From Bryobacterales bacterium (GTDB taxonomy: Bacteria; Acidobacteriota; Terriglobia; Bryobacterales; Bryobacteraceae): a stretch of DNA of 39,730 bases. How positions within the stretch are numbered: the first letter of the stretch is position 1; each line of letters begins with the position of its first letter. Below are positions 2,378 through 32,310 of the stretch, piece after piece. The position numbers and the translations under genes are program-made. The notes beneath the pieces were generated by a model, which did no database searches, was not told the DNA's origin, and worked only from the letters and a program-made list of their open reading frames with translations. The DNA lies in NCBI GenBank assembly GCA_025456495.1, contig JALOKO010000003.1:1-39730 (forward strand), written 5' to 3'.

Positions 2378-3097
2378 ATGATTGGCTGGGATGCAATGCC
2401 CTATTACTATCCGGTGTTTCTAAACCTCGAGGGTCGGCGCTGCCTGGTGATCGGCGGGAATGGCATGGCCACCGAAAAGGCGCTGGGCCTGCACGCGGCG
2501 GGCGCCCGGGTGACGGTGATTGCGGAGCAGGTGAGCGAGGAACTGGCCGAAGCAGCGGTGCTGGGGCACGTGGATTGGCGACCTCGCGGGTGGCAGGCAG
2601 GTGACCTGGAGGGCTTCTATCTGGTGGTGTGCGCTCCGGATGACCGCAGCATCAACGCCGCCATCCATCAGGAGGCTGAAGCGCGCGGCATCCTGTTCAA
2701 CGCGTTGGACGACCCGCCCCATTGTGGCTTTATCTTCGCATCCGTTCACCGGCAGGGTGACCTGGTGATGGCCATCAGCACCAGTGGCGTGGCCCCCGCG
2801 CTGGGTGTGCAGTTGCGCCGGTGCTTGGGGGAATTGCTGGGTCCGCAGTACGCTGACTTTCTCACTATGGCCCGCGAGTATCGCGATGCCATCACTACCC
2901 AATTGCCGGCCTTCACGCCGCGCCGCGACCTCTGGTATCGCATCGTCGATTCCGACATCATCCCGCTCTTGAAGCAGGGCGATGAGTCCGCTGCGCGCGG
3001 CCTGTTTGAGGGCTTTCTGCGCGAGGCGGGCGTGACCCCGCAGCGCGTCCCCATCACCACCCCTCAGGAGGAGGATTCCCATGACTGCGCAGCTTGA
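2378..3097 (+). CDS. Precorrin-2 dehydrogenase / sirohydrochlorin ferrochelatase (Met8/CysG N-terminal type)
   Basis: 'YYPVFLNLEGRRCLVIGGNGMATEKALGLHAAGARVTVIA' Rossmann start typical of CysG-N. Alternative start at 2396 (MPYYYP). Confidence 0.9.
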   Translation: MIGWDAMPYYYPVFLNLEGRRCLVIGGNGMATEKALGLHAAGARVTVIAEQVSEELAEAAVLGHVDWRPRGWQAGDLEGFYLVVCAPDDRSINAAIHQEAEARGILFNALDDPPHCGFIFASVHRQGDLVMAISTSGVAPALGVQLRRCLGELLGPQYADFLTMAREYRDAITTQLPAFTPRRDLWYRIVDSDIIPLLKQGDESAARGLFEGFLREAGVTPQRVPITTPQEEDSHDCAA

Positions 3098-3773
3098 CCT
3101 TAGCGCCTTCGACGCGCTGCCGCCTGAGGAGATCGTGCGCCGCGCCTTGGCGGAACTGTCCGCGCCTGCCTGCTTCACGTGCAGTTTTCAGGCGGAGGAT
3201 ATGGCTGTCCTGCATTTGTTGCGGCAGGTGCAGCCGGATATTCCCGTGTTGTTCCTTGAGACCGGCTACCACTTCCCTGAGACGCTGTCCTACCGCGACC
3301 GGTTCGCCGCCAAGTGGAACCTGAACCTGCGCAACCTGCAGGCGTCGATGAGCGTGGCCCAACAGGAAAGCCAGTTCGGCATCCTCAACCAGACTGACCC
3401 GACGCGCTGCTGTGACCTGCGCAAGGTGGGTCCGCTGTGGGAGGGCCTGCGCGGCTACCAGACCTGGTTCACAGGCCTGCGCCGCGAACAGTCCCCCACC
3501 CGCGCCAACATGAAGATGGCCGAACGGCACGTGCTGCCCACGGGAGAGGAACTGGTCAAGGTGAATCCCATCGCGGCCTGGAAGTGGAATGAGGTGTGGG
3601 CCTACCTCAGCATCCATGAGATTGAGGCGCTGCCCTTGTATGACCAGGGCTACACCAGCATTGGATGCGCGCCGTGCACGGCCAAGCCGACGGGCGACGA
3701 TTTGCGCAGCGGACGTTGGGGTGGACGGAAGCTGGAATGCGGTATCCACACCTTTACGGAGGCCCGCCAGTAA
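3081..3773 (+). CDS. cysH: Phosphoadenylyl-/adenylyl-sulfate reductase, APS-type with Fe-S cysteine pairs
   Basis: 'FTCSFQAEDMAVLH', 'TRCCDLRKVGPL', 'SIGCAPCTAKP', 'ECGIH'. Overlaps the preceding ORF by 17 nt. Confidence 0.94.
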   Translation: MTAQLDLSAFDALPPEEIVRRALAELSAPACFTCSFQAEDMAVLHLLRQVQPDIPVLFLETGYHFPETLSYRDRFAAKWNLNLRNLQASMSVAQQESQFGILNQTDPTRCCDLRKVGPLWEGLRGYQTWFTGLRREQSPTRANMKMAERHVLPTGEELVKVNPIAAWKWNEVWAYLSIHEIEALPLYDQGYTSIGCAPCTAKPTGDDLRSGRWGGRKLECGIHTFTEARQ

Positions 3774-4661: not shown

Positions 4662-4674
4662 GAAAGTTACCGCT

Positions 4675-4942
4675 GATAGAGGCGCGGCGGCCATCAATAG
4701 GCTTCCCATACACCGGGCCGTTCCCGGGGGATAGCGCGAAAGGGGCCGGGCAGGGCTTCCAGGTGATCCGTCCTGGAGCGTTGCCGGGAAGCAGTTCCTC
4801 CGCCGAAGCGAGCCGGGCACGAACGGTTGCCGGCGCGCTGGTGACCCGGGCTAAATCCTGGGCACTGTCACCTCCGCTGATCTTCCATCGGGAAGATTGG
4901 CCGTGTCCCTTTGGAAGGAGATGCGAGGGGTGGAGCGCTATC
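4675..4942 (+). promoter_or_regulatory. Lysine riboswitch (L-box)
   Basis: Ordered conserved blocks: GATAGAGGCGCGG (4675), GAAAGGGG, CGCCGAAG (4801-4808), CCCGGGCTAAATCCTGGGCACTGTCACC, GGTGGAGCGCTATC (ending 4942). P1 GATAG/CTATC pairs; ATCTTCC/GGAAGAT hairpin at 4880-4897. Lies directly upstream of DAP-pathway genes. Confidence 0.92.
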
Positions 4943-5024
4943 GGGCCGTGTCGCAATGTGTAGGCCGCCATCCGGGGCCTTCCAGGCACACGAACCCGCC
5001 CGCCTCTCCCCTCCACGCAAAGCC

Positions 5025-6199: not shown

Positions 6200-7252
6200 A
6201 TGGCACAGACGATTGAAGTTGGAGTTCTGGGCGCTACCGGGATGGTGGGCCAGCAGTTTATCCGCCTCCTGGAGGGGCATCCGCAACTGAAGCTTACCTG
6301 GTTGGGCGCCAGTGACCGCTCTGCCGGCAAGCTGTATCCGGAGGCTTGTTCGTGGCGACTGGACGGCCCCATGCCAGCAATGGTGCGTGGCCTGACCGTC
6401 AAGGAATGCAAGCCCGCGGGCGCCCCGCCCATTGTCTTTTCGGCGATGGATGCGTCCGTGGCCACTGAGATTGAACGCGCCTTCGCCGAGGCCGGGCACT
6501 GGGTGATTTCCAATTCGCGCAACCATCGGATGGAGCATGACGTGCCCCTGCTGGTGCCGGAGGTGAACGCGCTTCACCTGGCGCTGGTGAAGCAACAGCA
6601 GGCCAATCGCGGATGGAAGGGCGGTATCCTCACGAACCCGAATTGTTCCACCGTAGGCCTGACGATGGGGCTGGGCCCGCTGCGGCAGTTCGGCATCCAG
6701 CGGGTGCTGGTGGCCACCATGCAGGCTGTCTCGGGCGCAGGCTATCCAGGCGTGGCGTCGCTGGACATCCTGGGCAATGTAGTGCCCTACATCGGCGGCG
6801 AGGAAGAGAAGATGCAGACCGAGACGCAGAAGATCCTGGGTGCGCTGGGCGATGGCTGCATTGTTCCCCTGGATGCGAAGGTGAGTGCGCACTGCAATCG
6901 GGTGCCAGTGATCGATGGGCATACCGTGGCGGTAAGCGTGGAGTTTGCGAAGGATCCAGGGATGGACGCCGTTCGTGATGCCTTCACGCGATTCCGCGGC
7001 CGTCCGCAGGAATTGAACCTGCCCAGCGCCCCCACGACGCCTGTGCTTTTGGTGGATGATCCCACGCGTCCGCAGCCGCGCCGGGATGCGATGGCGGGCA
7101 ATGGCATGACGGTTACCATGGGCCGCTTGCGCCCGTGCGAAGTGTTCCACTACAAGTTTGTAGCGCTGGTCCACAACACGATTCGCGGCGCGGCGGGGGC
7201 TGCCATCCTGAATGCTGAGCTGCTGCTGGCGGAAGGATACCTGAACGCATGA
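6200..7252 (+). CDS. asd: Aspartate-semialdehyde dehydrogenase
   Basis: Start refined to ATG 6200 (MAQTIEVGVLGATGMVGQQFIRLL). 'ILTNPNCSTVGLTMGLGPL', 'VSAHCNRVPVIDGHTVAVSVEF'. Confidence 0.95.
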   Translation: MAQTIEVGVLGATGMVGQQFIRLLEGHPQLKLTWLGASDRSAGKLYPEACSWRLDGPMPAMVRGLTVKECKPAGAPPIVFSAMDASVATEIERAFAEAGHWVISNSRNHRMEHDVPLLVPEVNALHLALVKQQQANRGWKGGILTNPNCSTVGLTMGLGPLRQFGIQRVLVATMQAVSGAGYPGVASLDILGNVVPYIGGEEEKMQTETQKILGALGDGCIVPLDAKVSAHCNRVPVIDGHTVAVSVEFAKDPGMDAVRDAFTRFRGRPQELNLPSAPTTPVLLVDDPTRPQPRRDAMAGNGMTVTMGRLRPCEVFHYKFVALVHNTIRGAAGAAILNAELLLAEGYLNA

Positions 7253-8619
7253 TCGTCATGAAGTTTGGGGGTAGTTCGCTGGAGTCGCCTGAGGCCATTC
7301 AGCGTGTCTGCCACATTGTGAAGGAGCGCGTGCCGCAGGCGCCGCTGGTGGTGGTGAGCGCCCACGGAGCCACTACGAATCGCCTTCTGCAGGCGGCACG
7401 GGAAGCCCGCGCGGGACGGCGCGAAGGGATGGAAGATCTGCTGCGACAGTTGCGGGAATACCATCACGAACTGGTGCGGGACACGCTCAGCAATGGGCGC
7501 GCGGAGACAGCGCTGGGCGCGGTGGATGACCACTTCGACAAGCTGCTGGAGGTGCTGCGAGGCGTGGCTGTGCTGGGCGAACTGACGCCGCGCACGCTGG
7601 ATACAGTGATGAGTTTCGGTGAGCGTATCTCGTCGCGGTTGGTGGCGCTGGCGCTGTGCGAGCAGGGCGTGGCCGGCAGCGCCGTCGATGCACGGGACTA
7701 TATGGTGACCGACGAACGGCACACGCAGGCGCAGCCGAACCTGGCGGCCACCTACGCCAGGCTGGTTCCGCTGCGGGCGGCCATCCGCCAGGGGCAGGTA
7801 CCGGTGCTGGGTGGCTTTATCGGCGCGACCGAGGAAGGGGTGACATCGACGTTGGGCCGGGGCGGTAGCGACTTCTCTGCGTCCATCATCGGCGCGGGCG
7901 TGGAGGCTGATGAGATCCAGATCTGGACCGATGTGGATGGTGTGCTGACCTCTGACCCGCGCGTCATCTCGAACGTGCATCGCCTACGCGCCATCAGCTT
8001 TGCCGAGGCCAGCGAACTGGCCTACTTCGGGGCCAAGGTGCTGCATCCGGCCACCATGCTGCCCGCCATGCAGAAAGGCATCCCGGTGCGCGTGCTGAAC
8101 TCGCGCCGCCCGCATGTGGAGGGCACGCGCATCGTCCCCGACGTCCAACCCTGCCGCAATCCGGTGAAGGCTATCGCGTGCAAGAAGGGCATCACTGTGG
8201 TGAATGTCCACTCCACGCGCATGCTGATGGCGCACGGCTTCCTGCGACGGATGTTTGAGGTGTTCGACCGCTTTGAGACGCCGGTGGATATGGTGTGTAC
8301 TTCCGAGGTGAGCGTCTCGTTGACTCTGGACAATACGGACCGGCTGGTGGAGATTGTAGCGGAGCTGGAACGCTTCTCTACTGTGTCCGCGGAAGGCGCG
8401 CAGGCCACTGTGGCCATCGTTGGGGACAGCATCCGCTACACGCCCGGGATTACCGCGCGTGCGTTGGCGGCCTTGGGCGGAGTGAACGTGCGTATGATCT
8501 CGCAAGGGGCGTCGCTATTGAACCTCAGCCTGGTGGTGGCTGAAGACCAGTTGCATACGGCCATGCAGGCGCTGCACGACGAGTTCTTTCAGGATCTTGA
8601 CCCGGAGGTGTTTGCCTGA
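7249..8619 (+). CDS. lysC: Aspartate kinase (monofunctional, ACT domains)
   Basis: 'MIVMKFGGSSLESPEAIQRV', 'TLGRGGSDFSASIIGAGVEADEIQIWTDVDGVLTSDPR', C-terminal ACT. ATGA overlap with asd. Confidence 0.96.
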   Translation: MIVMKFGGSSLESPEAIQRVCHIVKERVPQAPLVVVSAHGATTNRLLQAAREARAGRREGMEDLLRQLREYHHELVRDTLSNGRAETALGAVDDHFDKLLEVLRGVAVLGELTPRTLDTVMSFGERISSRLVALALCEQGVAGSAVDARDYMVTDERHTQAQPNLAATYARLVPLRAAIRQGQVPVLGGFIGATEEGVTSTLGRGGSDFSASIIGAGVEADEIQIWTDVDGVLTSDPRVISNVHRLRAISFAEASELAYFGAKVLHPATMLPAMQKGIPVRVLNSRRPHVEGTRIVPDVQPCRNPVKAIACKKGITVVNVHSTRMLMAHGFLRRMFEVFDRFETPVDMVCTSEVSVSLTLDNTDRLVEIVAELERFSTVSAEGAQATVAIVGDSIRYTPGITARALAALGGVNVRMISQGASLLNLSLVVAEDQLHTAMQALHDEFFQDLDPEVFA

Positions 8620-9332
8620 TGCGCGTGGCGCTGGTGGGTTACGGCAAGATGGGCAAGGCGATTGAGGCGCTGGCCCCGGAAGCGGGCGCAGAGATTGCGC
8701 TGGTTCTGGATGAGCACAACAACCGCGATGGCAATGCCATCACACGCGGCGCCTTCGCCGATGTGGATGTGGCCATTGAGTTCACCGCGCCTGCCATCGC
8801 GCCGGGAAACCTGCTGCGGCTTGCTGAGGCGGGTGTGCCTACTGTGACCGGCACCACGGGCTGGTATGCGGCCTTGGACGAGGTGCGCGCTGCCTTCGCC
8901 GGACGCCAGGGAAGCCTGGTGTGGAGCCCGAATTTTTCCATTGGCGTAAACCTGTTTGACCGTCTGGCCGCTGAGGCCGCGCGGCTGTTCGCAGCGCATC
9001 CCGCTTATGGTTGCTGGGCCTGGGAAATGCACCACAACCAGAAGCTGGACGCGCCCTCCGGTACCCTTAAGGCGCTGGTGGAAACCATGCGCGATGCGGG
9101 CTACAGCCACGCCATCGACATCAGTTCCACCCGGGCGGGCAAGGCGCCCGGCACCCACGAGATTGGCTTCGATTCGCAGGTGGACACCATCGAGTTGCGC
9201 CACACGGCACGAAGTCGTGATGGCTTCGCGGGCGGTGCACTTTATGCCGCAAAGCTCTTACTGCGACAGCCCGGCATTTACCGTTTCGCCGACCTGCTGT
9301 TCCCTAGCACCTCACCCAAGGAGAGCGCCTGA
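8619..9332 (+). CDS. dapB: 4-hydroxy-tetrahydrodipicolinate reductase
   Basis: 'MRVALVGYGKMGKAIEALAP', 'EFTAPAIAPGNL', 'VTGTTGWYAAL', 'WEMHHNQKLDAPSGTLKALVE'. Confidence 0.95.
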   Translation: MRVALVGYGKMGKAIEALAPEAGAEIALVLDEHNNRDGNAITRGAFADVDVAIEFTAPAIAPGNLLRLAEAGVPTVTGTTGWYAALDEVRAAFAGRQGSLVWSPNFSIGVNLFDRLAAEAARLFAAHPAYGCWAWEMHHNQKLDAPSGTLKALVETMRDAGYSHAIDISSTRAGKAPGTHEIGFDSQVDTIELRHTARSRDGFAGGALYAAKLLLRQPGIYRFADLLFPSTSPKESA

Positions 9333-10207
9333 TGATTACCGGATGCGGCACCGCGTTGGTTACACCGTTCCACGAGGACGGCTCCATTGACACCATCACC
9401 TTTCAGCGTCTGGCGGCGCGCCAGGTGGAGGCAGGCATCGACTTTCTGGTGCCTTGCGGAACCACAGCCGAAAGTCCGACGCTGAACGAGGACGAGCAGT
9501 TGCTGCTGATTCGCATCGCCTGCGAAGTGGCGGCGGGCCGTGTGCCAGTGATGGCCGGCGTGGGCGGCAACCACACGGCTGCCTTGCAGCGACGCGCTGA
9601 GAAGGTGGAGGCGCTGGGAGTGCAGGCCTTGCTGTCGGTAACGCCGTACTACAACAAGCCCTCGCAGGAGGGCCTGTTGGCGCATTACCGCGCACTGGCG
9701 GCCAGCACTTCGCTGCCCATCGTGCTGTACAGCGTGGCCGGTCGTACGGGCGTCAACCTGGAGCCAGAAACGGTGCTGGCGCTGGCCGAGACGCCCAACA
9801 TCGCGGGCATCAAGGAAGCCTCAGGCAACATCGCGCAGATTGCCCGCATCGCCGCGCAGGCTCCGGCTGGCTTCGCTATCTACGCGGGTGATGATCTGCT
9901 GGCGATTCCCGTGATTGCGCTGGGCGGGCACGGCGTGATCTCCGTGGCGTCGAACGAAATTCCGGGGGAGATGGCAGGCATTGCACGCCATGCCTTGAAT
10001 GGCGACCTGGATAGCGCGCGCATTCTGATGAAGCACTACCTGCCACTGATGGACGTGAACTTCATTGATTCAAACCCCGTTCCGGTCAAGACCGCAATGG
10101 CCCTTATGGGCCTGCTGCAGCCCCATTGGCGATTGCCCCTGGTGGCCACCAGCACACCCAGGCAAGCCCGCATTCAAGCCGTACTCGAACAAGTAGGATT
10201 ACTGTAG
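9332..10207 (+). CDS. dapA: 4-hydroxy-tetrahydrodipicolinate synthase
   Basis: 'GCGTALVTPFHEDGSID', 'CGTTAESPTLNEDE', 'SVTPYYNKPSQEGLLAHYRALA', 'GIKEASGNIAQIARI'. Confidence 0.96.
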   Translation: MITGCGTALVTPFHEDGSIDTITFQRLAARQVEAGIDFLVPCGTTAESPTLNEDEQLLLIRIACEVAAGRVPVMAGVGGNHTAALQRRAEKVEALGVQALLSVTPYYNKPSQEGLLAHYRALAASTSLPIVLYSVAGRTGVNLEPETVLALAETPNIAGIKEASGNIAQIARIAAQAPAGFAIYAGDDLLAIPVIALGGHGVISVASNEIPGEMAGIARHALNGDLDSARILMKHYLPLMDVNFIDSNPVPVKTAMALMGLLQPHWRLPLVATSTPRQARIQAVLEQVGLL

Positions 10208-25475: not shown

Positions 25476-25552
25476 GGGGACGTAGTTCAGTTGGTTAGAA
25501 CGCCTGCCTGTCACGCAGGAGGCCGCGGGTTCGAGCCCCGTCGTCCCCGCCA
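25476..25552 (+). tRNA. tRNA-Asp (anticodon GTC), CCA encoded
   Basis: GGGGACG acceptor pairs CGTCCCC; TAGTTCAGTTGGTTAGA D-arm; CCTGCCTGTCACGCAGG anticodon arm; GCGGGTTCGAGCCCCGT T-arm; CCA at 25550-25552. Confidence 0.98.
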
Positions 25553-26379: not shown

Positions 26380-26488
26380 CAGCCGCAACCGGGCCGCTGC
26401 GCAGCAGATCTTCCACCGTATCCTTGCTCTTGTCCACCCGCCGTCTCTTGGCGCGTTTTCTCACTGGACTTTACGGTCTGAAAATGAT

Positions 26489-26514
26489 GTAATGCGGGCG
26501 AGCGTTCGCATTAC
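26489..26514. promoter_or_regulatory. Perfect inverted repeat (8-10-8) upstream of the corrinoid cassette, candidate operator
   Basis: GTAATGCG-GGCGAGCGTT-CGCATTAC. Confidence 0.55.
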
Positions 26515-26646
26515 TTCCGCTCTGGCGCCGACGGCGGTAGCCTCGTCCGCAACGTGATCGACAATGTGGGGGGGGCTGACGCGAACGCGAGACATCGTCG
26601 CCATGATCGATGCCGTTCACGAGTTCCATGGAAGGAGCTAGCCCCG

Positions 26647-27294
26647 ATGCCGGACCTGAACCAGTTGTACGCTGCAGTTGTCGAAGGGGACCAGAAGCTT
26701 GCCATCGCTGTCACCGAAGAGGCGATTGCGGCTGGCATTCCGGCAATGGACCTCATCAATGGCTACATGATTCCGGCCATGGACGAAGTGGGCAGGCGTT
26801 ATGAATGCGAGGATTACTTCGTACCTGAACTCTTGTTGTCCGCCCGGGCAATGAAGGGCTCGCTTTCCCTGCTGCGACCACTGCTGGCGGCGCAAGGGGC
26901 AGAGCCCGTGGCGCGCGTGGCAATCGGTACGGTGAAGGGCGACCTGCACGATATCGGCAAGAACCTGGTGGCGTCCATGCTGGAGGGTGGTGGGTTTGAG
27001 GTGTACGACCTGGGCGCGGACGTGCCGCCGGAGCGCTTCATTCAGGCCATTCGAGAGCAGCGGGTTTCCATCATCTGCCTGTCCGCGTTGCTGACGGTTA
27101 CCATGCCATCCATGCGCACTACGATTGAAGCCTTGCGGGAGGCGGGTGTGCGCGACGAAGTGAAGATTCTGGTGGGTGGGGCTCCGGTGACGCAGCAGTT
27201 TGCTGACCAGATTGGCGCCGATGGCTACGGCGCGACGGCGAGCGTGGCGGTGGCGTTGGCGCGTCAGGCGGCGGGCGTTGCCGCGCATCACTAG
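26647..27294 (+). CDS. Corrinoid (B12-binding) methyltransferase protein, MtbC/MttC-like
   Basis: Start refined to ATG 26647 (GGAAGGAG upstream). B12-binding motif 'VKGDLHDIGKNLVASMLEGGGFEVYDLGADVPPE', 'LSALLTVTMPSM', 'VGGAPVTQQFADQIGADGYG'; N-terminal helical cap. Confidence 0.93.
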   Translation: MPDLNQLYAAVVEGDQKLAIAVTEEAIAAGIPAMDLINGYMIPAMDEVGRRYECEDYFVPELLLSARAMKGSLSLLRPLLAAQGAEPVARVAIGTVKGDLHDIGKNLVASMLEGGGFEVYDLGADVPPERFIQAIREQRVSIICLSALLTVTMPSMRTTIEALREAGVRDEVKILVGGAPVTQQFADQIGADGYGATASVAVALARQAAGVAAHH

Positions 27295-27314
27295 ACGGGT
27301 AAGGGGGGCGCGGA

Positions 27315-28202
27315 ATGACCACGATTGGGGAAATGTTGGCCCAGGGGCCCCTGTTGACGGATGGCGCCTGGGGCACCCAGTTGCAGGCTAACGGGTTGGC
27401 GATGGGGGATTGCCCGGATGTCTGGAACCTGACGCATCCGGATGCCGTGCGCGCGGTAGCGGCTGCCTACGTGGACGCGGGCAGTCGCGTAGTGCTTACC
27501 AACACCTTTCGTGCCAATGCCATCGCGCTGGGTGACTACGGACATGCCGATGATCTGGTGCGCGTCAACCAACATGGCGTGATGCTGAGCCGCGAGGCGG
27601 CTGCGGGCAAGGCCTACGTGTTCGCCTCAATCGGACCCAGCGGGAAGCTACTGGTGATGGGCGATGTTTCGAGGGATGACCTGCGGCGGGTGTTCGCCCA
27701 GCAGGCGGAAGCCCTGGCCGGCGCTGCACCGGATGCGCTGTTGCTGGAAACCTTCAGCGACCTGGACGAGGCGCTAATTGCCTTGGATGCGGCGAAGAGC
27801 ACGGGACTGCCCGTGGTGGTGAGCTTTGCCTTCGACAGCGGGAAGCAGCGCGACCGCACCATGACCGGGTTACGCCCGGAGGACGCCGCCCGCGTCATGC
27901 AGGAAGCAGGAGCCGATGCCGTGGGCGCAAACTGCGGCAACGGCATGGAGGCGTTTCCCGCGGTTTGCGCGCGCATGCGCACCGCGTCGACGCTTCCCCT
28001 CTGGATGAAGGCCAACGCGGGAATGCCGCAGATGGTGGACGGCCGCGCGGTGTATGTGGAGGAAGCAGTGTCGTTTGCGGCCCATCTGCCCGGGCTGTTG
28101 CAAGCTGGCGCCTCGTTCGTAGGTGGTTGCTGCGGCACCTCGCCGGCTTTTGTGGCTGCTCTGGCGGCTGTTTGGCGGGAGGGCGCATGCGTGTCCGCTT
28201 AG
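27315..28202 (+). CDS. Homocysteine S-methyltransferase family protein
   Basis: 'LLTDGAWGTQLQANGL', 'LTNTFRANAIAL', zinc-ligand signatures 'GANCGNG' and 'FVGGCCGTSPAFV'. Confidence 0.92.
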   Translation: MTTIGEMLAQGPLLTDGAWGTQLQANGLAMGDCPDVWNLTHPDAVRAVAAAYVDAGSRVVLTNTFRANAIALGDYGHADDLVRVNQHGVMLSREAAAGKAYVFASIGPSGKLLVMGDVSRDDLRRVFAQQAEALAGAAPDALLLETFSDLDEALIALDAAKSTGLPVVVSFAFDSGKQRDRTMTGLRPEDAARVMQEAGADAVGANCGNGMEAFPAVCARMRTASTLPLWMKANAGMPQMVDGRAVYVEEAVSFAAHLPGLLQAGASFVGGCCGTSPAFVAALAAVWREGACVSA

Positions 28203-28963
28203 TGGCTTGCGAGGTGTTGTGTCGAGAGTTGAGCGCGTGTCTTGCGGAAGGTCAGTTGGTGGTGGATCCTGAGTTCCTGCCGAAGGGCCTGCACGACGAC
28301 GGGGGACCTGCCATGCGGGCGCGACTGCAGCAGTTGATTGACCAGACCGATCCCACGCGCTACCAGGCGGTCCTGCTGGGTTATGCGCTGTGCGGAACGG
28401 GGACGGCGGGGCTGGTGGCGCGCGAGATTCCCGTGGTCATTCCCCGTGCGCACGATTGCATTGCGCTGCTTCTGGGCAGTCGCGCCGCCCATGACGCGCA
28501 GATGGCGGTGGATCCTGGAACCTTCTTCCGTTCGCCGGGATGGGTGGAGCGCGGCGCGGACTTGCTGCAATTGAGCCGCAGGGCGGAACAGGAGGGGCAT
28601 ACGCTGGAGGACCTCATCCGGCGCTACGGCGAGGACAACGGGCGCTATCTGTTTGACGAGTTTCATCGCTACCGCGCCAGGTATTCGCGCCTGGTCTACA
28701 TCGATACAGGGGTTGCCGGCGGGCGGGGCTTGCAAGCGTGGGCGCGCGATGAGGCGTCGCGTAACGGATGGCGCTTTGAAACTGTCGAGGGCAACCAGGG
28801 ATGGTTCCGAAAGCTGCTGGAAGGAAGCTGGGACGACGACTTCGTCGTGTTGCGTCCGGGCGAGCAAAGCGTACACACCTACGATGACGACATCCTGCGC
28901 GCTGAGCCCGGACAGCGGCCCCAGCCACAGTTGGTTCCGCCCGCAAAGGAGGCATCGGCATGA
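28187..28963 (+). CDS. DUF1638-family protein
   Basis: Start refined to ATG 28187. 'VLLGYALCGTGTAGLVAREIPVVIPRAHDCIALLLGS', 'YIDTGVAGGRGLQAWARDEASRNGWRFETVEGNQGWFRKLLEG'. 16-nt overlap with previous gene. Confidence 0.8.
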   Translation: MRVRLVACEVLCRELSACLAEGQLVVDPEFLPKGLHDDGGPAMRARLQQLIDQTDPTRYQAVLLGYALCGTGTAGLVAREIPVVIPRAHDCIALLLGSRAAHDAQMAVDPGTFFRSPGWVERGADLLQLSRRAEQEGHTLEDLIRRYGEDNGRYLFDEFHRYRARYSRLVYIDTGVAGGRGLQAWARDEASRNGWRFETVEGNQGWFRKLLEGSWDDDFVVLRPGEQSVHTYDDDILRAEPGQRPQPQLVPPAKEASA

Positions 28964-29970
28964 CCGGCAAACAGCGTATTCTGGCCACACTGGAAGGACT
29001 ATCCCGCGATCATCTCCCCCTGATGCCCATCACGATGATGTTCGCCGCCGATACCGCGGGTGTGCGCTACGGAGAGTATGCGCGCGACTATCGGGTGCTG
29101 GCGGAAGCGCAACTGCGCACCGCGGAAAAGTACGGCTTCGATTATGTGTCGGCGATTTCTGACCCCGCGCGCGAGGCGGCTGACCTGGGCGCGGCCATCG
29201 AGTACTTCGATGATCAACCACCGGCCATTATCGAGGAGCGGGCGCTGCTGCTGGACAAATCCAGGTTGGGGTTGCTGGCGCTGCCGGACCATAGCCAGTG
29301 CGGGCGCATGCAGGATCGGCTGTTGGCGGTGGAGGCGCTGGCTTCCCGAGTGGGAGAGGATCTGCTGGTGGAAGGCTGGGTGGAGGGCCCTTGCGCGATG
29401 GCCTCTGACCTGCGGGGCATCAACAACCTGATGCTGGATTTCCACGACGATCCGGACTTCGTCCGTGACCTCTTCGCGTTCGTGATTGCCATGGAGGTGG
29501 ATTTCGCCAAGGCGCAGATTGCCGCGGGGGCGGGAATCATCGGCATCGGTGACGCAGCGGCATCCCTGGTTGGCCCGCGCATTTACCAGAGCTTCGTGCT
29601 TGCCGGCGAGCAGCAGATGATCCGTGAGATTCATGCGGCGGGGGCCAAGGCACGCCTGCACATCTGTGGCAACACGCGCCGCATCTTGACCGGCATGGGG
29701 CAAACCGGCGCCGACATGATCGATCTGGATTCCCCCTCCCCGGTGGCTGAGGCGCGCGCGGCCATGAGCGCTTCGCAGCCCTTGCTGGGCAATCTGGATC
29801 CGGTGCGCACGCTGCGCGACGGGAGTCCGGAGTCCGTGACCAGCGCCATCGCCCAATGCCATGTCGAAGCAGGCGAGGCCTTCCTGGTGGGCGCCGGCTG
29901 TGAGATTGCCCGGGGTACGCCAGAGGCTAACGTGTTCGCAATGGCGCGCTACGCGGCATCCCATGCCTGA
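28960..29970 (+). CDS. Uroporphyrinogen decarboxylase-family methyltransferase (MtaA/MtbA/CmuA/MtvB-like)
   Basis: 'MTGKQRILATLEGLSRDHLPLMPI', 'EGPCAMASDLRG', zinc-type 'ARLHICGNTRRIL', 'LLGNLDPVRTLRDG', 'FLVGAGCEIARGTPEANV'. Confidence 0.88.
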   Translation: MTGKQRILATLEGLSRDHLPLMPITMMFAADTAGVRYGEYARDYRVLAEAQLRTAEKYGFDYVSAISDPAREAADLGAAIEYFDDQPPAIIEERALLLDKSRLGLLALPDHSQCGRMQDRLLAVEALASRVGEDLLVEGWVEGPCAMASDLRGINNLMLDFHDDPDFVRDLFAFVIAMEVDFAKAQIAAGAGIIGIGDAAASLVGPRIYQSFVLAGEQQMIREIHAAGAKARLHICGNTRRILTGMGQTGADMIDLDSPSPVAEARAAMSASQPLLGNLDPVRTLRDGSPESVTSAIAQCHVEAGEAFLVGAGCEIARGTPEANVFAMARYAASHA

Positions 29971-31483
29971 GCGCCGCACGCTGACTCTGCATCCGCGTCC
30001 GGGTGAACGCCTACGCGATCTGCTGTTGGCCAGCGGGATGGAGTTTCCCTGCGGCGGTGAGGGAAGCTGCGGGCAATGTCGAGTGCGCGTATCGCGTGGC
30101 GCCGTGCCAGCGACGGCCGCAATGAGCGCTTGTCTGGACGCGAAGGAACTGGCGGCTGGCTGGCGCTTGGCCTGCCTGGCGGAGTTTGACAGCGCCGAGC
30201 CCTGCAACCCTGTGGAGGTGGAGTTTCCGCCATGGCAGGGGGACGCTGCTTCGGGCGCCGTTGCGATCCTTGGCGATGAGGGGGTCCTGGCAGTAGAACC
30301 TCGGGAGGGGCTGGGCGCGGTGGTGGATGTGGGAACCACCACGTTGGTGGCGCAGGCTGTTGACCTGGCATCGGGTTTGCTGCTGTCCACGGAATCTGCA
30401 CTGAACGCGCAGTCCCGCTGGGGAGCGGACCTGATGAGCCGCATCCACCATGAACTGCAACAGCCCGGCGAACTAACAGCGCTTATCCGGCAGCAAGTGG
30501 GCGAATTGCTGACGCGCGCCAGCCATGGGCACCCGATAAGTGAGGTGCTGCTGGTGGGCAACACGGTGATGCACCACCTTTTTTGTGGCTTGTCCATCCA
30601 GGCGCTGGCCGCCGCGCCCTTCCGCACGCCGCACCTGGACGCAAACACCCTTCGCGGCTCCACGCTGGGCTGGACGTTTGCGCCTGACGCAACCGTTACC
30701 TTCCTGCCCAACCTGGGGAGCTTCGTGGGCAGCGACGTGCTTGCAGGATTGGCGGCGGTGGGGATGGAAAGCCGAGTAATGCCTGAGGCGCTACTGGACC
30801 TTGGCACCAACGGCGAGATCGCTCTGGCCACGGAGGGCGGCATCCTGTGCGCATCCACAGCTGCGGGTCCTGCCTTCGAGGCCGCCAATATTCGCCATGG
30901 CATGCGCGCGGCCCAGGGCGCCATCCATCGGGTGGATGTGGTGGATGGCCAGTTGCGCGCTGAGGTGCTGGGGAACGGAACTGCCTATGGCGTCTGCGGC
31001 AGTGGCTTGGTGGACGCGGTGGCCTGCGCGCTGGACACAGGCATGCTGAGTCCACGGGGGCGTCTGCGGTGGGGACTCTCCGCGATTGTGCTGGCCGATG
31101 GCGTAGTCATTACCCAGCGGGATATTCGCGAGCTGCAGTTAGCGAAAGCTGCTATCGCCAGCGGCCTGCGTCTGCTGCAGGATGTCGCGGGCACAAGGCC
31201 TTCTCGACTTCATCTGGCCGGGGCTTTCGGCAACTACCTCCGCCCGTCTCGTGCCGTGCGCATCGGCCTGCTACCCACAGGCGAGGGGGATGGCTACCCA
31301 CCCTGTGTGTTGGCGCCTGCCGGCAACACCGCTCTGCGTGGCGCGCGTATGCTGTTGCTGGCGCCCAACCGCCATGCCAAGGTTTTCGATGGCCTGCGCC
31401 ATCGCGCTCACCACGTTGAGCTGGCTGCGCTCCCACGGTTTCAGGAGGAGTTTGTCGATGCGCTCTTGTTCCCTGAGGCGTGA
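29963..31483 (+). CDS. ASKHA-domain reductive activator of corrinoid proteins (RACo-like) with N-terminal [2Fe-2S] ferredoxin domain
   Basis: Start refined to ATG 29963. Ferredoxin motif 'CGGEGSCGQCRVRV...C'; ASKHA motifs 'GAVVDVGTTTLVAQAVDLASG', 'NTVMHHLFCGL', 'LLDLGTNGEIAL', 'HLAGAFGNYLRP'. Confidence 0.92.
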   Translation: MPERRTLTLHPRPGERLRDLLLASGMEFPCGGEGSCGQCRVRVSRGAVPATAAMSACLDAKELAAGWRLACLAEFDSAEPCNPVEVEFPPWQGDAASGAVAILGDEGVLAVEPREGLGAVVDVGTTTLVAQAVDLASGLLLSTESALNAQSRWGADLMSRIHHELQQPGELTALIRQQVGELLTRASHGHPISEVLLVGNTVMHHLFCGLSIQALAAAPFRTPHLDANTLRGSTLGWTFAPDATVTFLPNLGSFVGSDVLAGLAAVGMESRVMPEALLDLGTNGEIALATEGGILCASTAAGPAFEAANIRHGMRAAQGAIHRVDVVDGQLRAEVLGNGTAYGVCGSGLVDAVACALDTGMLSPRGRLRWGLSAIVLADGVVITQRDIRELQLAKAAIASGLRLLQDVAGTRPSRLHLAGAFGNYLRPSRAVRIGLLPTGEGDGYPPCVLAPAGNTALRGARMLLLAPNRHAKVFDGLRHRAHHVELAALPRFQEEFVDALLFPEA

Positions 31484-31504: not shown

Positions 31505-32092
31505 CTAGATCATCTCGCGCAGCAGTTCCGCGCGCGGATGGGGGATCACCACCTTGTTCACCAGCAGTCCCCGGGCGCCTACCACGCGCGCCCCTGCGTC
31601 GATGGCGGTATCGACATCGGCCACTGAGCCGGTGAGCGTCACGAAGGCCTTCCCTCCTAGCGCCATCGCCAGCCGGATCTCCAGCAGTTGCACATCCGCC
31701 GCCTTCACGGCCGCGTCAGCCCCTTCAATCAGAGAAGCGACGCTGAAGGCTTCCAGCACTCCTAGGGCGTCCAAGGCTTGCAGCTTGTTGGTTCCGGCGA
31801 TGGCGGGAAACACAGCCTCATGCAAGTTGGCGATGACAAACGAATCAATCACAGACACGCTTCCGGCGCGCTTTCCAGCGGCTACCGCGGTTTGCACCTT
31901 TGCCACATCGCCGCGCACCATCACCATGAATTTTCCAGAGCAGATGGACCGCGCCAACACAATCCGCACGCCGGCGGACTTCAGCATTGCATCGCATACC
32001 TGAAAGCCCGCCGCGATGCTGCCAAGCTCAATGAGCCCGATGGAGTTCTCTGAAGATCTGCCGTCATCGCTCGCGCTGAAGTGGGTGTTCAT
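31505..32092 (-). CDS. Bacterial microcompartment tandem-domain shell protein (BMC-T, PduT-like)
   Basis: Start refined to ATG 32092 (AGGAAG upstream). Domain 1 'SIGLIELGSIAAGFQVCDAMLKSAGVRIVLARSICSGKFMVMVRGDVAKVQTAV', domain 2 'ALGVLEAFSVASLIEGADAAVKAADVQLLEIRLAMALGGKAFVTLTGSVADVDTAIDAG', C-term 'KVVIPHPRAEL'. Confidence 0.92.
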   Translation of the reverse strand: MNTHFSASDDGRSSENSIGLIELGSIAAGFQVCDAMLKSAGVRIVLARSICSGKFMVMVRGDVAKVQTAVAAGKRAGSVSVIDSFVIANLHEAVFPAIAGTNKLQALDALGVLEAFSVASLIEGADAAVKAADVQLLEIRLAMALGGKAFVTLTGSVADVDTAIDAGARVVGARGLLVNKVVIPHPRAELLREMI

Positions 32093-32098
32093 GTCTTC

Positions 32099-32150
32099 CT
32101 GCCGAAACGGTCTGCCGATGTTATCCGCCGACACGATCTGCCGACACTGT
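32099..32150. repeat. Four heptamers (CYGCCGA; TCGGCRG on the minus strand) with exact 13-bp period, just upstream of the BMC-T start codon
   Basis: ctgccgaaacggt / ctgccgatgttat / ccgccgacacgat / ctgccgacactgt starting at 32099, 32112, 32125, 32138. Confidence 0.8.
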
Positions 32151-32157
32151 ATCATGC

Positions 32158-32202
32158 GGGGCGGACCGCGCCATACTGGAATGACTTGGCGCGGACCGCG
32201 CC
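32158..32202. promoter_or_regulatory. Twin palindromic elements (14/15 identical, 30 bp apart) in the BMC-T/grpE divergent region
   Basis: GGGGCGGACCGCGCC (32158-32172) and GGCGCGGACCGCGCC (32188-32202). The second lies between TTGGCG (32186-32191) and GATAAT (32210-32215), spacer 18 nt. Confidence 0.65.
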
Positions 32203-32310
32203 TTCTGGCGATAATAAGGGGTGAAGACTCCACAGCAGCCGTGGTTCTCGCGGCTTCGGAAGGGCCGTGGCAGCCCGGCTATCTCCAACTGGTTGCATCA
32301 CAAGAACGAT

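Follow-up and report, generated by a model that had tools for sequence, protein, structure and literature searches.

Among described corrinoid systems, the split MetH of Phaeobacter inhibens (PMC5764234) and MtgBCDE of Ruegeria pomeroyi (PMC12478193) come closest to the locus reported here, as they likewise have a corrinoid protein, a homocysteine S-methyltransferase (HMT), a DUF1638 protein and a ferredoxin-DUF4445 (RamA-like) protein as separate polypeptides. In P. inhibens, DUF1638 has a methionine auxotrophy phenotype along with the RamA-like protein (Price 2018, PMC5764234), so the link of such genes to a multi-part MetH, mentioned in an earlier note made from the present DNA alone, is real. 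In R. pomeroyi, the demethylase MtgB shares the corrinoid protein (PMC12478193). Here we describe an operon of Bryobacterales bacterium (GCA_025456495.1), in which these four kinds of protein are joined by a methyltransferase of the UroD fold. Here ‘the window’ refers to the whole stretch analyzed, a 39.7-kb contig (JALOKO010000003.1, positions 1 to 39,730) of an assembly of 4.17 Mb in 583 contigs that is 79% complete. We put the probability at about 0.5 that the operon serves as a corrinoid-dependent demethylase with homocysteine as the methyl acceptor.

Open reading frame calls and Pfam agree on five genes, all on the + strand at 26647-31483, and the Pfam families of all five proteins score above cut-off. 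With the region 5′ of them, they are:

26647..27294, + strand, corrinoid (B12) protein (COR in gene orders), 215 aa, with a PF02607 cap and a PF02310 B12-binding domain
27315..28202, + strand, HMT, 295 aa (PF02574, 214 bits)
28187..28963, + strand, DUF1638 protein, 258 aa (PF07796, 108 bits)
28960..29970, + strand, MtaA-like UroD-fold methyltransferase (UroD hereafter), 336 aa (PF01208)
29963..31483, + strand, RACo-like ATP-dependent corrinoid activator, 506 aa (Fer2 PF00111, Raco_middle PF17651, RACo_C_ter PF14574)
26380..26646, + strand, intergenic region 5′ of the operon, 267 nt

The corrinoid gene is spaced by 20 nt from the HMT gene, and the genes after it overlap by 16 nt (HMT/DUF1638), 4 nt (DUF1638/UroD, as ATGA) and 8 nt (UroD/RACo), just as the earlier note had read them. 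Its statement that the cluster has no pterin-binding gene also holds, as Pfam finds none there.

The corrinoid protein carries DLHDIG (DxHxxG) at residue 99, SAL at 146 and GGAP at 177. Among solved structures, 1y80 is the nearest to it (E 3e-58), with MetH chains far weaker (about 1e-26), and it scores under every NCBIfam cut-off. Alignment of the HMT with T. maritima MetH falls on the homocysteine domain (E 4e-40) and shows that both have NC and GGCCGT; the zinc cysteines of the HMT, C207 and C272/C273 of the NC and GGCC motifs, are kept. The RACo-like protein consists of a 2Fe-2S ferredoxin domain (cysteine motif CGGEGSCGQC...CLA) and an ASKHA domain. Its C-terminal part matches 3zyy (E 6e-58), and 2Fe-2S, Raco_middle and RACo_C_ter together make up the RACo/RamA architecture.

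The AlphaFold2 model of UroD (pLDDT 96) has M. mazei MtaA (4ay8/4ay7) as its nearest fold at a TM of 0.85. The two proteins are 27% identical, and their zinc ligands align. MtaA is a thiol methyltransferase. Against TIGR01463 (MtaA/CmuA family), UroD scores 156.7 bits, below the curated cut-off of 235.4. Its zinc site of H234, C236 and C314 is invariant in an alignment across 45 homologs. In the UroD superfamily, His-Cys-Cys zinc coordination is found in S/Se-methyltransferases, and O-demethylases have lost one or both cysteines (PMC10418091). Because the invariant site is His-Cys-Cys, as in S/Se-methyltransferases, we infer that UroD would act on a sulfur or selenium substrate.

Residues C8, H36, C69 and H89-D90-C91 of DUF1638 are invariant in an alignment of 38 homologs. 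Sequence search gave no usable match for this protein, and the structural route to its function was given up, as its AlphaFold2 model is confident (pLDDT 89) but nothing in the PDB matches its fold (best E 7e-3, probability 0.16, TM no higher than about 0.27). DUF1638 may assist reactivation of the corrinoid protein.

Gene content, gene order, co-occurrence, key residues, folds, a canonical MetH and the lack of a detectable folate partner were observed directly, and we infer from them the reactions, their directions, the substrate and the function of DUF1638 as follows. The MtaA-like UroD would bind a small methylated molecule at its His-Cys-Cys zinc, with thioethers, thiols and selenides the most likely substrates, and would move the methyl group to the corrinoid protein in its Co(I) state. 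From the corrinoid, the HMT would then transfer the methyl group to zinc-bound homocysteine, making methionine without the usual folate partner. RACo would use ATP to restore Co(I) when the cobalt has been oxidised by accident to Co(II), while DUF1638 would aid reactivation or handle the corrinoid protein. In relatives, other donors, such as a 425-aa UroD and methanol-type MtaB, would plug into the same core. This demethylase reading is supported by a homocysteine-type HMT with the three MetH zinc cysteines, by the zinc site of UroD, which is of the thiol type, and by the other donors that join the core.

Conservation was surveyed in two samples: 201 relatives, 49 of them with a UroD ortholog, for co-occurrence, and the 80 best loci from a scan of 84,980 species genomes for gene neighborhoods. 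About a dozen genomes of the family share the order COR-HMT-DUF1638-UroD-RACo, as do about 16 of the 80 best loci. The five-gene loci are mostly from Bryobacterales, with Planctomycetota examples in L092 (Aquisphaera) and L121. Hosts of the operon are thus Acidobacteriota and some of the related bacteria that live in soils and sediments. Verrucomicrobiota and Hydrogenedentota, too, have UroD orthologs (59-66% identity), often as stand-alone genes. Of the 49 UroD-bearing genomes, 47 have DUF1638, as do 12 others among the 201 (Fisher p = 6e-32, a value that ignores shared ancestry), and the ATGA overlap of DUF1638 stop and UroD start is kept in 22 of 34 loci. Because of the recurrent order, the DUF1638-UroD co-occurrence and the kept overlap, the gene grouping is not chance. 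The five genes do co-occur in relatives, and non-co-occurrence, which the earlier note had named as a way for its proposal to fail, is refuted.

Several single loci stood out in the survey. In L049, HMT adjoins UroD at 7681-9539 on the - strand (about 17 nt), DUF1638 being on another contig of this genome (G093:C26). L163 (DYJN01000084.1) carries the operon under the label ‘Arcobacter sp.’, its nearest relative being Bryobacteraceae; the record is probably mislabelled or misbinned. GFO/IDH/MocA and sugar-transporter neighbors were not used as a clue to a methylated sugar, as they are present in some loci only.

In a UroD tree, operon-linked and stand-alone genes interleave, with 15 changes against 26 in shuffles. 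Linkage to the operon thus appears to have been gained or lost repeatedly, and function is not settled by this tree.

The donor enzymes around the core are variable. Many relatives encode F4, a divergent UroD of about 425 aa, directly 5′ of the corrinoid gene, and 39 genomes have both F4 and UroD. As read from the motif position in the sequences, F4 has His at the position of UroD C314, which would fit a non-thiol donor. MtaB, a methanol methyltransferase, is found in L142 (COR-MtaB-HMT-DUF1638-UroD-RACo), L150 (UroD-F4-COR-MtaB-DUF1638-RACo-HMT) and L175 (HMT-MtaB-DUF1638). L179 and L180 keep COR-HMT-DUF1638-RACo without this UroD, L180 having a different UroD that adjoins RACo, and L104 and L129 hold F4, COR, DUF1638, UroD and RACo with no HMT nearby. 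In genomes with a stand-alone UroD, namely G063 (C41) and G068 = G207 (C137), a cluster-type HMT is within a few kb of F4 genes on the same contig.

What these loci have in common would be a corrinoid core that mostly uses HMT on the acceptor side and varies in its donor, and this core resembles a hub between corrinoid and homocysteine to which donors can be fitted interchangeably. Somewhat short of even odds, we consider it possible that the hub is modular and folate-free, so that thiol-type UroD, non-thiol F4 and MtaB load one corrinoid protein for methyl transfer to homocysteine and methionine is the entry of environmental methyl groups. The same tentative standing applies jointly to DUF1638, which accompanies donor enzymes of several families in relatives, as a standard partner of corrinoid systems with interchangeable donors. 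In four genomes (G026:C66; G090:C11, which is L177; G105:C149; G186:C418), DUF1638 shares a contig stretch with MttB and an above-cut-off methyl-folate:corrinoid methyltransferase, and these loci are, on their gene content, a predicted second, folate-linked DUF1638 system within the same group.

The host genome has a canonical MetH with an activation domain, apparently cut by two contig ends. The homocysteine, pterin and B12 domains are on contig C56, where the activation domain (PF02965) also begins, and C161 holds the remainder of PF02965; from this complementary coverage, the two pieces would be one MetH gene. The earlier note had held that a complete canonical MetH elsewhere, together with no methionine phenotype, would speak against it, and the first of these two has now been found. 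A MetH activation domain is also present in 46 of the 49 UroD-bearing genomes. Because canonical MetH is so common among them, the operon would have another job than MetH.

The other host genes with PF00809 are a dihydropteroate synthase (DHPS) in a folate operon and a DHPS-like gene on C275, and no stand-alone methyl-folate:corrinoid methyltransferase was found in the 79% complete assembly by PF00809 and profile search. Thus, the check for stand-alone pterin-binding methyltransferases that the earlier note proposed yielded these two genes only. The C275 gene was considered as a hidden methyl-folate:corrinoid enzyme, but it scores 144 bits as DHPS (cut-off 162.6) and 24 bits with the methyl-folate:corrinoid model, making that role unlikely. 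Among the 201 relatives, an above-cut-off methyl-folate:corrinoid methyltransferase is present in 11 genomes, 3 of them among the 49 with UroD, showing no association (p = 0.73).

As for donors, hemE and the cluster UroD are the only UroD proteins found in the host assembly. The donor search covered the UroD, MttB and MtaB families, and no F4, MtaB or MttB was found in the window’s genome (G000, 79% complete), in G003 and G004, the two further genomes of its genus that carry the cluster, or in the single-contig G101. UroD is left as the candidate donor because of this result. It may be the donor enzyme or an MtaA-like acceptor enzyme, but the evidence tips to the donor, because the window’s genus and G101 have no other recognised donor.

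Extra UroD proteins of G003 and G004 were considered as donors and set aside, as they have an N-terminal twin-arginine/secretion-like stretch (MKRRTLLSLP...) and were not found in the window’s genome; they are probably exported. In the same genus, L169 (about 6991-8049, - strand) and L170 (about 2636-3715, - strand) are UroD-family proteins whose N-terminus looks like an export signal (MKRRTLLSLP...) and which have a zinc-like pattern, HVC/GADC. Export would be unusual for a protein of the UroD fold.

Several observations weigh against the demethylase reading. In many relatives UroD is beside another donor enzyme, and next to such a donor an MtaA-like protein would be acceptor-side, as in methanogens. 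Some clusters are without HMT (L104, L129), some are without this UroD (L179, L180), and UroD orthologs are found by themselves as well. The operon has no linked sulfur or selenium gene, thioether and selenide substrates being hypothetical, and the absence of other donors from the window’s genome rests on the three families searched in an incomplete assembly. The demethylase-to-homocysteine route of the earlier note is favored by the HMT type, the UroD zinc site and the alternative donors of relatives; the direction of UroD, for which the note had itself allowed either a donor or an accessory role, is less certain.

The rival that survives best, although we regard it as unlikely, has UroD on the acceptor side, where it would act as MtaA does and use the methyl group of the corrinoid protein to methylate a thiol (perhaps homocysteine, perhaps another cellular thiol), with HMT as a second or alternative acceptor enzyme. 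A separate enzyme would then be the donor: in relatives the linked F4 or MtaB, and here one that is either not linked or not recognised. MtaA is indeed the nearest homolog and fold of UroD; L142 and L150 group UroD with MtaB and a corrinoid protein, which is the MtaABC set; the His of F4 in place of the third zinc Cys fits a non-thiol donor; and L104 and L129 do without an HMT nearby. However, the core without this UroD keeps HMT in L179 and, with a different UroD, in L180, and the donors F4, MtaB and MttB that this rival calls for were not found in the window’s genus or G101. Moreover, HMT already serves homocysteine, so that a second thiol enzyme requires its own acceptor.

Clearly less probable is a Phaeobacter-type split B12 methionine synthase, in which a pterin-binding protein, its gene either not linked or not sequenced, would supply the methyl group of methyl-tetrahydrofolate and UroD would be accessory. 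This was one half of the earlier proposal, and what stood of it is that four of the five kinds of protein match the Phaeobacter set; P. inhibens requires a corrinoid protein, an HMT, a DUF1638 protein and a RamA-like protein along with the pterin protein, whose gene is not linked there either (PMC5764234). The incompleteness of the host assembly leaves room for such a gene, and G028 has a methyl-folate:corrinoid methyltransferase about 2 kb from a cluster-type HMT (G028:C17 39626-43492), a pair that may be a real split methionine synthase. The proposal falters on the canonical MetH with its activation domain and on the lack of a methyl-folate:corrinoid subunit in the host assembly, such a gene being rare among UroD genomes (3/49), and it leaves the conserved, translationally coupled UroD unexplained.

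Weakest is the recycling of a by-product (methyl-selenide, methanethiol or a methylthioadenosine-derived thioether) with methionine as the disposal route, as proposed for type 1 mlp clusters, whose authors propose recycling into methionine (PMC10418091): the His-Cys-Cys Mlp-like UroD, the corrinoid protein, the Ram-type activator, the lack of a folate methylase and the patchiness of the operon inside the window’s genus (2 of 5 genomes without it) are in its favor, but there is a single Mlp-type protein, DUF1638 is not described in mlp clusters, and no linked selenium or methionine-salvage gene was seen. The operon as a replacement for MetH is disfavored and was set aside, canonical MetH being present in the host genome; a role as the only methionine synthase of the cell is unlikely.

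In the rest of the window, a tRNA gene is at 25476-25549 (+), 5′ of an RraA-like gene and the operon. Directly 3′ of the operon and convergent with it, beside grpE/dnaJ, a protein with two bacterial microcompartment (BMC) shell domains is encoded at 31505-32233 (-), and no further BMC shell gene was noticed in a Pfam scan of the window proteins. Riboswitch control of the operon was dropped as an idea, as Rfam at the gathering threshold, applied to the window and five relatives, gave no riboswitch for cobalamin or S-adenosylmethionine (SAM) close to the operon. A lysine riboswitch (RF00168, 47.7 bits) is at 4669-4948, 5′ of an M20 peptidase gene, asd, lysC, dapB and dapA, which would form a regulated lysine operon.

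Some soil and sediment prokaryotes have substrate:corrinoid methyltransferases without the expected folate methyltransferase, for which an undescribed protein has been blamed, as said of Thermoplasmata (PMC11264602). In thawing peat, expression of demethylases for methanol and methoxyl groups has been seen in Acidobacteriota (PMC10805028). If methyl groups do go to homocysteine as favored here, the operon would supply such a missing second step for one large bacterial group and would couple the turnover of compounds with methyl groups to the supply of methionine and SAM. DUF1638, with its methionine phenotype and unassigned function, gains consistent genomic partners.

Type 1 mlp clusters (Kountz and Balskus, PMC10418091) likewise have an MtaA-like His-Cys-Cys UroD, a corrinoid protein and a Ram-type activator with no folate methylase. 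In the window, no folate methylase was found, and the corrinoid protein and the activator are on the same strand, with 8 kb of contig 3′ of the operon where the mlp definition spans 20 kb. However, type 1 clusters have two or more Mlp (Mlp2 and Mlp3), a count that the one UroD here fails to reach, and the present operon has HMT and DUF1638. Type 1 mlp clusters are mainly from Firmicutes, whereas the operon is found in Acidobacteriota, Planctomycetota and others.

MtaABC, MtvABC and MtgABC likewise combine a donor enzyme, a corrinoid protein and an activator, and relatives of the present operon carry MtaB at the same place. The second methyltransferase of those systems is of the coenzyme M or tetrahydrofolate type, whereas here it would be the homocysteine-type HMT and/or UroD. 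MetH has corrinoid and homocysteine modules related to those here; unlike MetH, the present proteins are separate, with no folate or SAM-activation domain, and the corrinoid protein is nearer to methyltransferase corrinoid proteins.

The five-part combination was not found described in a literature search, from whose reach subscription journals were mostly excluded. In contrast to the Phaeobacter and Ruegeria systems, no pterin-binding MtgD was detected here, UroD is built in, the five genes are in one operon, and a canonical MetH is present too. Thus, the parts are known, and four of them match the Phaeobacter split-MetH set, but their combination is new.

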